Source: Hyphomicrobiales bacterium (GTDB lineage Bacteria; Pseudomonadota; Alphaproteobacteria; Rhizobiales; Rhizobiaceae). Taken from it: DNA of 64,000 nt. The notes under the pieces were generated by a model. It was not told where the DNA came from and ran no database searches. It worked only from the letters and a program-made list of their open reading frames with translations. Location: NCBI GenBank assembly GCA_900470285.1, contig UCAG01000005.1, forward strand, positions 440,921 through 504,920. The letters run 5' to 3'. Below, piece after piece: positions 1,352-6,725 of this stretch. The position numbers and the translations under genes are program-made. Within the stretch, counting starts at the first letter, position 1; every line of letters begins with the position of its first letter.

Positions 1352-2311
1352 CTTGAGCGGTTCTTCGATTCTGCAAACAGCAGCTTCGCAACAATGCTCA
1401 AAACGGCTTTATCAGGCACAATAAAACCGGTCATACGCATTGCGATCCGGGATAGTTGCGTCGAAATTTTTGCCGGTCCTCAGGAGGCAACTCCTTTCCG
1501 GCGGAGAGTTGGGGATTGTTGTTATCAACAGGCTCCGGGAATGTTGAAGACGGAAGAAATGTGATCCGTTACGCCGGTGTTGTTTTCAGTATCGCAGGCA
1601 CACAGATCACAGTTCGGCAAGGCAACAGGAATCAGGTTATGCGCAAGGTCAGAGCTGCTTTTCAGGAATCAAAAAACAAACAGATGTCCGCATCTGTGGT
1701 TCAGGAACCTGTTTCAGCAGATTTGTCAGCAGTCAGAGCGAATCTTCGCCCGATGGCTTTATACGACCATCTCTGATGACGCATCCGGCTCTTCTATGAG
1801 TCATTCCTTTCAGACCTCTCCCGCCGTCCGTTCCGTTCTTATCAGTTTAAGCAAGTTCAGCATGCGTTTTGCGGAATAACCGCAGTTTGTGCAGCAGATT
1901 TAAAGGTGCGCTTTGCACCTGAAAGGCCTCCGCCCTCGGGTTTCTAAAACGGCGGAACCACAATGCTCGGATTTATCACCGCCGGTGCGTCTTTGGATGA
2001 ACCATACCGGTGAGGAATACAGGGAAGCCTAAGACAAAAAGTTCTTTGAGGGCACAACGCTCCGGAGAACGACAAATACCGCACCGTAAGGTGCAAAAAT
2101 AAAGACGCACCGTGAGGTGCAAAAGAAAAGAGCGCCGTCAGGCGCAGATACAAAAAGGCACCGCAAGGTGCAGACCAATAAGGCCCTGCCAAGGGAAACT
2201 GTAGCCCCCGCTACAATGTCCGCTGACTATTCTCTCCGGAGTAATCAACAGGCATATAACGCATAATCAGTCTCTGAAAAATATCAGGGCGATCAAGAAA
2301 CGAGGAATCCG
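1352..2311 (+). other. Long gene-free region, presumed nrdHIEF leader
   Basis: About 960 bp between the NrdR-box promoter and nrdH with no convincing gene. The longest sense frame (TTG at 1456 to 1776) shows no recognisable domain. Hairpins are visible: CAACTCC with GGAGAGTTG at 1488-1511, AGGTGC/GCACCT with a five-base loop at 1904-1920, a periodic array at 2081-2195, and TGTAGC/GCTACA at 2200-2215. No B12, FMN or other riboswitch consensus was recognised. It could be a long 5' leader, a separate noncoding RNA, or both. The nrdH ribosome binding site (GAGGA) closes it. Confidence 0.45.
2081..2195 (+). repeat. Array of five evenly spaced GNNA-loop hairpins
   Basis: Four 14-nt units of 5-bp stem and 4-nt loop, then one 4-bp unit: GCACCgtaaGGTGC (2081-2094), GCACCgtgaGGTGC (2107-2120), GCGCCgtcaGGCGC (2132-2145), GCACCgcaaGGTGC (2158-2171) and CCCTgccaAGGG (2184-2195). 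Loops begin at 2086, 2112, 2137, 2163 and 2188, spacings of 26, 25, 26 and 25. The third stem changes both partners of one pair (A-U to G-C), so pairing is kept. Read on the plus strand the loops are GUAA, GUGA, GUCA, GCAA and GCCA, three being GNRA. Linkers are mostly A-rich. The period is not a multiple of three, so a coding repeat is unlikely. Confidence 0.75.
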
Positions 2312-2752: not shown

Positions 2753-2804
2753 GTCTTTGTTTGACTTCAGTGTCTCACTGGAGATTTAACATGAGGAAGT
2801 GGCT

Positions 2805-3215
2805 ATGAGCATGCTCGTCTATTTTTCAAGCGGCACGCAAAATACGCATCGCTTTGTCACAAAGACCGGACTGCCTGCTCTGCGTATTCCGTGCAGCATG
2901 AAGGCCGATCTTTTACAGGTGACACAACCTTTTGTACTTGTTGTCGCAACCTATGCCGGCGGAGACGGACGCGGTGCCGTTCCCAAACCTGTGATCCGTT
3001 TTCTTAATGACAGTTCCAACCGTTCCTTCATTCGCGGTGTGATTGCAGGCGGCAACCGTAACTTCGGTTCAACCTATTGTCTTGCCGGCAATGTCATATC
3101 TGAGAAATGTCAGGTACCGTTCCTGTATCGCTATGAACTGGCCGGAACGGATGATGACGTTATCAATGTGCGGAATGGCCTGCAAAAATTCTGGCAGGCA
3201 GACCTCGCTGCCTGA
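2805..3215 (+). CDS. nrdI: Flavodoxin-like protein NrdI
   Basis: A 136-residue flavodoxin-fold protein that helps assemble the dimanganese-tyrosyl radical cofactor of NrdF. The FMN phosphate loop is seen in [12 protein letters not shown] near the N-terminus, and the family's [10 protein letters not shown] segment follows at about residues 78-87. Length agrees with proteobacterial NrdI. The ATG at 2805 was chosen because GAGGAAG lies just upstream; an in-frame GTG at 2799 is possible but too close to that site. It is followed by a 275-bp gap that holds a palindromic repeat before nrdE. Confidence 0.95.
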
Positions 3216-3237: not shown

Positions 3238-3342
3238 TAGAGCATGATCTCTTAAACTTGAACCAGTTTAAGTTCAAATTATGCTCTCATTTTAAAGTGT
3301 TAGAGCGAGTTTTGTGCGCCTAACCGGGCGCCCGGCGCTCTA
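3238..3342 (+). repeat. Palindromic intergenic element, family 1 (copy between nrdI and nrdE)
   Basis: Two joined modules. The left one is bounded by AGAGCAT and ATGCTCT with inner TTAAACT/AGTTTAA. The right one runs from TTAGAGCG to CGCTCTAA with inner TGCGCC/GGCGC pairing. Bases 3290-3318 are identical over 29 bp to the reverse complement of 19922-19950, showing this is a dispersed repeat. The layout resembles the Bru-RS/RIME palindromic elements known from Brucella and rhizobia; identity with a named family is inferred. Confidence 0.8.
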
Positions 3343-3491
3343 ATAATGAAATTGAATTGCTGTCCGCTTTCTCAATCAAAAGCCGGATCAGTATTGTGAA
3401 CAGATGTGGAAATAAAGCCGGTCTTTGTTTTGCACATACCGACAAATAAATTGGCCGACACATATTGGCCGAAAAATGAATTGGAAAAACT

Positions 3492-5681
3492 GTGGCGACT
3501 CTTGAGCTTGAACGGACAGAAAAAAACAACACCAACAGTTCAAACAACGGGAGTTCTAAAAAGGACACTCCGGCAATGGACTATCATGCGCTGAATGCCA
3601 TGCTGAACCTTTTCGGTCCGAATGGTGAGATCCAGTTTGATATGGATCGTAAGGCCGTTCGCCAGTATTTTCTCCAGCATGTGAACCAGAACACGGTTTT
3701 CTTCCACAATCTGGAAGAGAAACTCGATTATCTGGTGACCCAGAATTATTACGAAAAAGAAGTTCTGGACCAGTATTCCTTTGAGTTCGTCCAGAATCTC
3801 TTCAATCTTGCCTATAAAAAGAAATTCCGCTTTCCAACCTTCCTTGGCGCGTTCAAATATTACACCAGCTACACGCTGAAGACTTTTGACGGCCTGCGTT
3901 ATCTGGAACGTTATGAAGACCGCGTTTGTATGGTTGCGCTGGCTCTGGCTGACGGCGACGAAGCTCTGGCGATCTCGATCATGGAAGAAGTGCTGTCCGG
4001 CCGTTTCCAGCCTGCGACACCGACTTTCCTCAATGCCGGTAAAAAACAACGCGGTGAGCTGGTTTCCTGCTTCCTTCTGCGTATGGAAGACAACATGGAA
4101 TCGATCGGTCGCTCGATCAATTCCGCACTGCAGCTTTCCAAGCGCGGCGGTGGTGTTGCTTTTGCACTGACCAATATTCGTGAGCATGGCGCACCGATCA
4201 AAATGATCGAGAACCAGTCTTCCGGCATCATTCCGATCATGAAGCTGCTCGAAGATGCTTTCTCTTATGCTAACCAGCTGGGTGCGCGTCAGGGTGCCGG
4301 TGCGGTTTATCTCAATGCCCACCATCCGGACATTATGCGCTTCCTCGACACCAAGCGTGAAAATGCGGATGAAAAAATCCGTATTAAAACCCTGTCGCTC
4401 GGCGTGGTGATTCCGGACATCACTTTTGAACTCGCGAAAAATGACGAGGATATGTATCTGTTCTCGCCATATGACGTAGAGCGTGTTTACGGTGTGCCTT
4501 TCACTGAAATCTCGGTTTCAGACAAATACCGCGAAATGGTTGATGACGGCCGTATCCGTAAGCAGAAGATCAAGGCGCGCGCCTTCTTCCAGACCTTGGC
4601 GGAAATCCAGTTTGAATCCGGTTATCCGTACATCATGTTCGAAGATACCGTGAATGCAGCCAATCCGATTGCCGGTCGCATCAATATGAGCAATCTCTGC
4701 TCGGAAATTCTTCAGGTCAGCGAAGCCAGCACCTATAAAGACGATCTGAACTACGAACATATCGGCAAGGATATTTCCTGCAACCTCGGCTCGCTCAATA
4801 TTGCGATGACCATGGACTCACCGGATTTCGGCAAGACTGTTGAAACTTCGATCCGTGCGCTGACCGCTGTGTCGGATATGAGCAAGATCAATTCCGTGCC
4901 ATCAATTGCCCGCGGCAATGATGAATCACATGCAATTGGCCTTGGTCAGATGAACCTGCATGGCTATCTTGCTCGTGAACGCATTTATTACGGTTCTGAA
5001 GAAGGTGTGGATTTCACCAACATCTATTTCTACACCGTGGTCTATCACGCGATTAAAGCGTCCAACCGCATTGCGATGGATCGCAAATCAAGCTTTGTCG
5101 GCTTTGAAGATTCAAAATATGCCGACGGCACATTCTTCGACAAATATACCGACAAGGTCTGGGAACCGGAAACTGCCCGTGTTCGTGAATTGTTTGAAAC
5201 TGCAGGCGTTGCGATTCCAACGCAGGCAGACTGGGAAGAACTGCGCAAATCGGTGATGGCGCATGGTATGTATAATCGCAACCTTCAGGCTGTTCCGCCG
5301 ACAGGCTCAATTTCCTACATCAACAACTCGACCTCTTCGATCCATCCGATTGCCTCCAAGATTGAAATTCGCAAAGAAGGCAAGATCGGCCGCGTTTATT
5401 ACCCTGCCCCGTTCATGAGCAATGACAATCTTGATTATTATCAGGACGCTTATGAGATCGGTGCAGAGAAAATCATCGACACTTATGCAGCAGCTACGCA
5501 GCATGTGGATCAAGGGCTGTCGCTCACACTGTTCTTCCGCGATACCGCAACAACCCGCGATATCAACAAGGCGCAGATCTATGCATGGCGCAAGGGAATC
5601 AAAACTATCTACTATATCCGCCTGCGCCAGATGGCTCTGGAAGGCACACAGGTAGAAGGCTGCGTTTCCTGCACCCTGTAA
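3492..5681 (+). CDS. nrdE: Ribonucleoside-diphosphate reductase class Ib, alpha subunit
   Basis: The catalytic large subunit that reduces ribonucleoside diphosphates to deoxyribonucleotides with NrdF, using NrdH as donor. The 729 residues align by recall with E. coli NrdE almost throughout, including [20 protein letters not shown] (first active-site Cys), [18 protein letters not shown] (Asn, Cys, Glu of the active site) and the C-terminal CVSC pair that passes electrons from NrdH. The N-terminus is about 14 residues longer than in E. coli if the GTG at 3492 is used; an internal ATG at 3576 would begin exactly at MDYHAL. The ribosome binding site before 3492 is weak, so the start is uncertain. 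Confidence 0.96.

Positions 5682-6725
<1,044 letters not shown>

Follow-up and report, generated by a model that had tools for sequence, protein, structure and literature searches.

The stretch examined here, called the window throughout, comprises 64,000 nucleotides (nt) of DNA from a Hyphomicrobiales bacterium (assembly GCA_900470285.1, contig UCAG01000005.1, positions 440,921 to 504,920; genome G000, 3.81 Mb in 23 contigs). Near its start lies, on the plus strand, the ribonucleotide reductase operon nrdHIEF, and the subject of this study is a row of small hairpins in the leader of that operon. An earlier note on this DNA had presumed that the leader belonged to nrdHIEF, and the genes 3′ of the hairpins are indeed nrdH (2312-2533), nrdI (2799-3215), nrdE (3492-5681) and nrdF (ending at 6725), each scoring above the cut-off of its NCBIfam model (TIGR02194, TIGR00333, TIGR04170 and TIGR04171). 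A ribosome-binding region, CGAGGAATCC, precedes nrdH, the two together spanning 2301-2533. Judged by NrdH, the closest named relatives are Pseudochrobactrum saccharolyticum, P. asaccharolyticum, P. kiredjianiae, strain sp1633 and record SK6B4, and the window belongs to the genus Pseudochrobactrum. Record JAHREI010000002.1 (L046) is labelled Bacillus subtilis SK6B4 and holds a Pseudochrobactrum nrd locus; it is perhaps a mislabelled or mixed genome. The predicted 5′ leader of the nrdHIEF mRNA is 0.92-1.1 kb long.

The array consists of four plus-strand units, each a 5-base-pair (bp) stem closed by a loop of 4 nt: GCACC-GTAA-GGTGC (2081-2094, loop at 2086), GCACC-GTGA-GGTGC (2107-2120, loop at 2112), GCGCC-GTCA-GGCGC (2132-2145, loop at 2137), in which both sides of one pair carry a compensatory change, and GCACC-GCAA-GGTGC (2158-2171, loop at 2163). 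A further hairpin, CCCT-GCCA-AGGG (2184-2195, loop at 2188), reads CCCC/GGGG in strain sp1633. The five hairpins and loop positions given in the earlier note were thus found where it had placed them, and the double change in its third hairpin is real. Its description of an array of five holds for the four 5-bp units and not for the last hairpin, which is a related neighbour rather than a fifth copy, since it has a 4-bp stem of different sequence; this neighbour is paired in all six aligned Pseudochrobactrum sequences, with one double change. From its end at 2195 there are 116 bases to nrdH, and within them lie a sixth hairpin, GTAGC-CCCC-GCTAC (2201-2214, stem identical in the six sequences), and a seventh small one, ATTCT-CTCC-GGAGT (2229-2242), which reads GTTCC-N4-GGAAC in three relatives, shows a double change at one pair in three of the six sequences and has 96.7% of its cells paired. 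RNAfold predicted all five hairpins of the earlier note, and the region 2030-2320 gave a folding z-score of -5.70, a value as low being reached by none of 200 shuffles. Over its last 270 nt the leader folds largely into local hairpins, one after another. The 64 kb of the window contain a single chain of four similar 5-bp tetraloop hairpins in steps of 20-30 nt; among 40 dinucleotide-shuffled versions of the window, chains had a maximum length of one hairpin in 28 and of two in the other 12.

The array was present between the same flanks in all five other Pseudochrobactrum genomes in which nrdH was found, and in all six it lies in the nrdH leader; a further genome of the genus, G002, is 61% complete and is uninformative, NrdH not having been found in it. 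Units of the GCACC-N4-GGTGC family number 4 in the window and 3, 5, 5, 5 and 4 in the others, 26 in total, so that species differ by whole units. P. asaccharolyticum and SK6B4, with five units each, have the first of these upstream of a conserved long stem that precedes the array. The scan that collected the units fixed an initial G, a terminal C and an N4 loop and allowed standard or A-C pairs. It returned 37 rows, of which 26 were kept; the 11 dropped were six copies of GTAGC-CCCC-GCTAC, three of GTTCC-N4-GGAAC and two of GAAAC-TGTA-GCCCC, the last with three A-C pairs each and overlapping the GTAGC hairpin. A similarity scan with no pairing rule recovered the same 26 units, all fully paired, together with 17 look-alikes without full pairing, 15 of which overlap a unit or fall outside the array. 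Pairwise identity was 0.79-1.0 in stem columns and 0.31-0.73 in most loop and flanking columns, and consecutive units are joined by linkers of 8-12 nt.

The earlier proposal of selection on RNA pairing is supported across the genus, where more double changes were found. They occur at two of the five pair positions (A-U to G-C and C-G to U-A); 5 cells of the unit rows carry such a change where shuffles give 0.6, and the covariation score of the rows, 0.226 compared with 0.144 in shuffles, was reached by none of 500 shuffles. In an alignment of the 3′ leader from six sequences, where units were not chosen by pairing, the four array helices were 100% paired, 98.6% of 295 cells overall were paired, and 6 double-change pairs were counted against 2.0 in shuffles. 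These shuffles ignore relatedness, and the excess, strong as it is, is one of counts and not of probabilities.

Four one-sided stem changes, in three units, indicate on which strand the structure is kept: read from the plus strand, three are U-G and one is G-U. On the minus strand the same changes read as A-C and break the stems of 3 of the 26 units. Since they pair only on the plus strand, as G-U, the array is predicted to act as plus-strand RNA. In folding z-scores the plus strand beat its own shuffles by more than the minus strand did in all six genomes (in P. saccharolyticum, -4.56 plus vs -2.59 minus). The base preceding the stem is T in none of the 26 units and the base following it is A in 25, so the stem stays at 5 bp. 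The earlier statement that GNRA loops arise on the plus strand only stands, whereas its GNNA rule is loose genus-wide, 9 of the 26 loops being GNRA and 20 GNNA. Taken together, these comparisons make it highly likely that the hairpins are an RNA element of the nrdHIEF leader, maintained as a plus-strand structure.

Outside the genus the array was sought in several ways, and it looks restricted to Pseudochrobactrum. A DNA similarity search of 101 genomes gave matches in the window's own genome and five genomes of the same genus only. A covariance model of unit pairs, run against 301 genomes, gave clear matches only in the six nrdH leaders among the matches listed, with E ≤ 1.9e-9 for adjacent units in the array and 7.3e-7 and 1.5e-6 for matches spanning the long stem; an element common to nrdH leaders across Brucellaceae, as the earlier note expected, was therefore not found, the array appearing in Pseudochrobactrum alone. 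At E ≤ 0.1, 209 of the 301 genomes had some match, which is noise at that threshold, and the best match outside the genus among those listed had E = 1.1e-5 (G090). Weaker matches within the genus were G003:C1:1232887, at 1.9e-5, and G002:C68 (L150), the latter being one of eight weaker-match loci viewed by eye (L149-L155 and L157), none of which had more than one complete unit. In 78 other nrdH loci, a set without two of the 80 fetched records (both Pseudoclavibacter), the array model had no same-strand match at E up to 1 and two weak minus-strand matches (E 0.024 and 0.42). A model-free scan found chains of at least three hairpins in four of five Pseudochrobactrum loci, the diverged stems of strain sp1633 holding its score to 2, and in none of 80 other nrdH upstream regions (75 fetched records and 5 further loci, the latter with a chain length of 1 each in L013-L016 and below 2 in L017). 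Array copies elsewhere in the window's own genome were looked for with GCACCGNNAGGTGC, which occurs six times, three of them in the array; the other three showed no array when viewed and, judged by eye, read like coding sequence. No Rfam family covers 2030-2311 at gathering score or at a relaxed threshold, in keeping with the earlier remark that no described RNA has this layout; the relaxed search of 950-2400 gave three matches, all at 950-1105 and outside the element. No description of it was found in the open-access literature, a negative that carries little weight.

The rest of the leader is also conserved in part. The likely nrdHIEF promoter (1315-1351) combines TTGACG at 1315 with a box, ACATATACCATATATAGTGT at 1332-1351, which we take to be NrdR-like from the NrdR consensus. 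It is the sole sigma-70-like site in 960-2400, where shuffles average 1.2, and the stretch from TTGACG to the box is found in all six Pseudochrobactrum leaders, with TTGAC 969-1146 nt before nrdH and reading toward it. An upstream open reading frame (uORF) of 45 amino acids at 1639-1776 ends LRPMALYDHL-stop and is a candidate leader peptide. It is open in all six genomes, with 45 or 54 codons, a difference due to one in-frame 27-base block, and starts with ATG in three and GTG in three. At its end the protein LRPMALYDH is invariant in the six while the L, R, P and Y codons vary synonymously; its middle drifts freely, nonsynonymous codon differences exceeding synonymous ones in 12 of 15 pairs. 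The C-terminal part alone is thus clearly under peptide-level selection, and translation is predicted. Each of the six Pseudochrobactrum genomes has a single match to a codon pattern for RPMALYDH, and 390 other genomes have none (the backwards-pattern control had one match, in G088). A search for uORF relatives outside the genus gave matches at E ≤ 1 in 47 other genomes, none better than 0.006; no relative outside Pseudochrobactrum was established by it, and there was no NCBIfam match. The uORF is accordingly a candidate arrest or leader peptide that, among the genomes searched, is present only in Pseudochrobactrum.

The 78 nt at 1767-1844, which begin 7 nt ahead of the stop codon of the uORF, have the greatest excess of C over G in the leader and resemble a rut site. 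The top C-minus-G window begins 7-8 nt before the uORF stop in five of six genomes and is second best in P. kiredjianiae; in a scan of 1700 nt upstream most top C-over-G windows lie 5′ of the promoter, so the rut-like claim applies within the leader only. By its composition this stretch may load Rho. Just upstream of the array, a conserved long stem-loop of 12 pairs (2041-2070), with 98.6% of its own cells paired in the six-sequence alignment described above, has a boxA-like 5′ arm, GTTCTTTGA at 2041-2049, replaced by GTTTTTTGA in P. kiredjianiae. All six leaders have a single copy of the motif GTTNTTTGA, as against 11-31 of 1000 shuffles that have one; it is absent from 75 other nrdH upstream regions and present in one of four further leaders (L015, at -643).

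Near the operon, two side observations were made. Plus-strand transfer RNA (tRNA) genes stand in tandem at 701-773 and 878-950, 177 bp apart; their copy number varies in the genus, with three copies in L044 and L046. Between nrdI and nrdE, at 3238-3345, an inverted repeat around AACTTGAACCAGTTTAAGTT was noticed on reading the sequence.

The position held by the array in Pseudochrobactrum is held in the relatives sampled by a different RNA. An Rfam scan covered 20 of the 80 fetched nrdH loci, five from Pseudochrobactrum (L043-L047) and 15 others from Brucella/Ochrobactrum species, Falsochrobactrum, Rhizobium, Neorhizobium, Shinella, Agrobacterium, Ensifer and Devosia. A cobalamin riboswitch (RF00174) lay upstream of nrdH in 15 of the 15 others vs none of the five. 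In the window RF00174 had no match at gathering score, and in 950-2400 none up to E = 10; Pseudochrobactrum genomes have one to three cobalamin riboswitch matches each, none beside nrdH, one match in G005 being below the cut-off. A model of the B12-dependent reductase NrdJ scored above its cut-off in 49 of 61 genomes. The 12 without it were seven Pseudochrobactrum genomes (one of them 61% complete), G011, G012, G014, G065 and G069. All six Pseudochrobactrum genomes of at least 99% completeness lacked NrdJ above the cut-off and had one Ribonuc_red_lgC match each, the NrdE of nrdHIEF. Conversely, G032 and G035 combine NrdJ with a riboswitch directly before nrdH, at distances of 388 and 263 nt. 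Two genomes outside Pseudochrobactrum without NrdJ, G012 and G065, fit the link, having a single large subunit and no riboswitch match (in G065, none upstream of nrdH). Riboswitch loss therefore tracks NrdJ loss, in a small sample with few independent losses, and the riboswitch of nrdH was plausibly lost because there is no NrdJ and NrdE is the sole class I/II large subunit.

Beside the B12 riboswitches, very short open reading frames were seen by eye just 3′ of the riboswitch in L052, L062, L065, L070, L076, L078, L082 and L086, for example MSSNSRPNSSGPPFTG-stop in L062 and MSVSQFRPPPAR-stop in L078. Several of these loci have a GGGGTGA start region beside a CCCCG...CGGGG inverted repeat.

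We tentatively favour the explanation, at somewhat less than even probability, that the array is a new, genus-specific cis-acting RNA part serving as a multi-copy docking platform for a trans-acting factor. A docking platform was chosen because stem sequence and pairing are kept while linkers and loops drift, and because each of the six leaders has at least three copies, with stem length and the following A steady. The proposed course of events is that nrdHIEF became the only class I/II reductase, that repression by B12 was then lost, and that a different control of the leader took over. The uORF and the rut-like stretch would set the number of polymerases or ribosomes getting through, and the array would dock a factor that reads a short hairpin, mostly with a GNNA loop, flanked by single-stranded A-rich RNA. 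Once docked, it might promote passage or survival of the transcript into nrdH; that the effect is passage or survival rather than repression is a guess from the upstream rut-like stretch and the need for the sole reductase. Among the possible roles named in the earlier note (protein-binding array, RNase-protection module, Hfq-type scaffold and sequestering RNA), a platform for binding is preferred here.

Several points count against this interpretation. Full pairing of 115 of 115 pair cells in the 23 distinct unit rows, all with standard pairs, is, like the fixed ends, partly a matter of construction, since the scan demanded them. Only six genomes are involved, and the uORFs of P. asaccharolyticum and SK6B4 differ at 4 bases, so that with two of the six very close there are few independent events; concerted evolution of tandem repeats could likewise keep stems alike. 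Two GCACC half-units fused to the long stem, in P. asaccharolyticum and P. kiredjianiae, fail to pair. In three of six genomes the minus strand has the lower raw folding energy, and the generic scan gives chains of 2 in 10 of the 75 other named loci. Two known readers of multiple hairpins, ANTAR and CsrA, fail to fit. As to the evolutionary setting, the term sole reductase refers to class I/II, class III (NrdD) being outside the search, and the 61 genomes scanned for NrdJ are other than those behind the 15 riboswitch loci. G014 (392.4 bits, cut-off 399.95) and G069 (306.3 bits, 84% complete) have what look like near or partial NrdJ matches, and in G011, where no riboswitch match was found, there is a second PF02867 protein that scores under the NrdJ cut-off.

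The main rival is a structural insulator or stabiliser, in which hairpins and A-rich linkers block long-range pairing, Rho and RNase E and no specific reader is involved. It accommodates the local folding of the last 270 nt and the variable number of units (3-5), and YC dimers are few in 2001-2180 (4-5 per 60 nt vs 14 just after the uORF). At 2181-2240, however, the sequence is C-rich again, with 13 YC dimers, and a pure insulator would not need the stem sequence to be kept as closely as it is (identity 0.79-1.0). This sequence-blind role seems unlikely, albeit worth weighing seriously; pausing and a nut-like site are smaller rivals.

In the first of these, the units would form a series of hairpin-stabilised RNA polymerase pauses, the 11-12 nt to the next unit prolonging pausing and giving Rho or the ribosome time. 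According to a review (PMC12288461), pausing is lengthened about 10-fold by a duplex that lies 11-12 nt from the 3′ end of the RNA, and 14 of 18 linkers are 11-12 nt long; the other 4, which count against a pause series, are 8-10 nt. The elemental G-10/Y-1 pause signal, moreover, is not conserved. Linker positions 2 and 3 most often hold A, the stem is preceded by C in 15 of 26 units and by T in none, and the G at +1 was imposed by the scan. A pause series is accordingly rather improbable.

A nut-like antitermination site, in which the boxA-like GTTCTTTGA and boxB-like hairpins recruit Nus factors and render polymerase Rho-resistant into nrdHIEF, is more doubtful again. GTTYTTTGA is found in 6/6 leaders, the boxA-like 9-mer resembles the boxA of Phyllobacterium (GGTTCTTTGAAAATTG) and Ensifer (GGTTTTTTGACAATTG) among four Rhizobiales ribosomal RNA (rRNA) leaders viewed, and GTTNTTTGA is present once in each leader. 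The resemblance was nevertheless noticed after the fact, and much of the conservation of the 9-mer is accounted for by the stem in which it is buried. When the organism's own rRNA was sought for its boxA, 16S rRNA (RF00177) had no match in any of six Pseudochrobactrum assemblies (G000, G001 and G003-G006), whereas 9 of 14 control genomes were positive; these six assemblies perhaps lack the rRNA or have it masked. The 9-mer is also separated from the array by 31 nt, whereas in the lambda site boxB closely follows boxA. The suhB mRNA of E. coli is known to carry a boxA in its leader (PMC5725501), and there Nus factors repress. We give equally little credence to the fullest version of this idea, in which the whole leader would be a new control device replacing the B12 riboswitch, the sensing peptide LRPMALYDH gating a Rho site and the boxA-like element with a variable-number boxB-like array forming a cellular, non-phage, nut-like antitermination platform into nrdHIEF.

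A neutral tandem repeat, its hairpin-prone units multiplied by slippage and without function, would explain whole-unit changes among species and the two degenerate half-units beside the long stem, but stems with double changes, linkers so different within one array that the units must be old although in-array stems are kept, and the lack of arrays found elsewhere in the window's own genome leave it slightly less credible still. Least probable of all is an element acting as DNA or on the minus strand, either NtrC-like palindromic operators (consensus TGCACC-N5-GGTGCA) or tandem antisense terminators: the units are palindromic, GGTGCA resembles an NtrC half-site, a T-rich tract follows each of the four window units on the minus strand, and 960-2400 contains 10 terminator-like matches where shuffles give 1.4, with five of the 10 inside the array on the minus strand, but all 26 units have N4, a size that the unit scan had fixed (loops of 3 or 5 gave no better-paired alternative in the array), a symmetric operator would have the left T that none has, A-C mismatches would break 3 of the 26 minus-strand stems, and U occupies the first two tail positions in only 9 and 10 of 26 units (20 at the third).

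One leader-RNA control has apparently been replaced by another at a key operon, with related genera keeping the ancestral-looking state and loss of the B12-dependent enzyme as a plausible cause of the replacement. No second hairpin array of this type, in tandem and variable in number, is known to us from the mRNA leader of a bacterium. The conserved leader peptide provides a second lead on how the level of a single class I/II ribonucleotide reductase is set.

Five known systems invite comparison. The cobalamin riboswitch of nrd operons (RF00174) takes the same place, in the leader of a B12-independent reductase operon, and in Streptomyces it controls nrdABS, a class Ia operon beside a class II enzyme (PMC4991794); the array differs in being a row of simple hairpins, and none of the Pseudochrobactrum nrdH leaders scanned matches RF00174. 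The target RNAs of ANTAR proteins (EutV, NasR, AmiR) are likewise tandem small hairpins in mRNA leaders. In PMC3369931 these are described with linkers of 5-12 nt in the E. faecalis eut genes, which resemble the 8-12 nt of the array, with conserved loop-proximal stem pairs, and with hexaloops having A1 and G4 upstream of an intrinsic terminator. None of the 26 units fits the A1/G4 rule, and an ANTAR-domain match (PF03861) was found in four of the six array-bearing genomes, not in G000 or G004, and in none of 14 control genomes. CsrA/RsmA leaders and sponge RNAs also carry several short hairpins in one RNA. Their motif is ANGGA in hairpin loops, which occurs in none of the 26 unit rows, with GGA at the loop in one.

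The boxA/boxB signals of nut and rrn resemble this leader in that a boxA-like 9-mer precedes 5-bp hairpins whose loops are GNRA-like, as in boxB; here the boxA-like arm is paired, there are several hairpins instead of one, and the gap noted above intervenes. Leader-peptide-controlled Rho attenuators are a general class with a conserved short uORF, then a C-rich, G-poor stretch, in a long leader, a layout that the nrdHIEF leader appears to share and to which the hairpin array would be an extra part. Structured leaders and multi-hairpin binding RNAs are thus known kinds; within them the array is solid as an element, and its evolutionary setting is neat.

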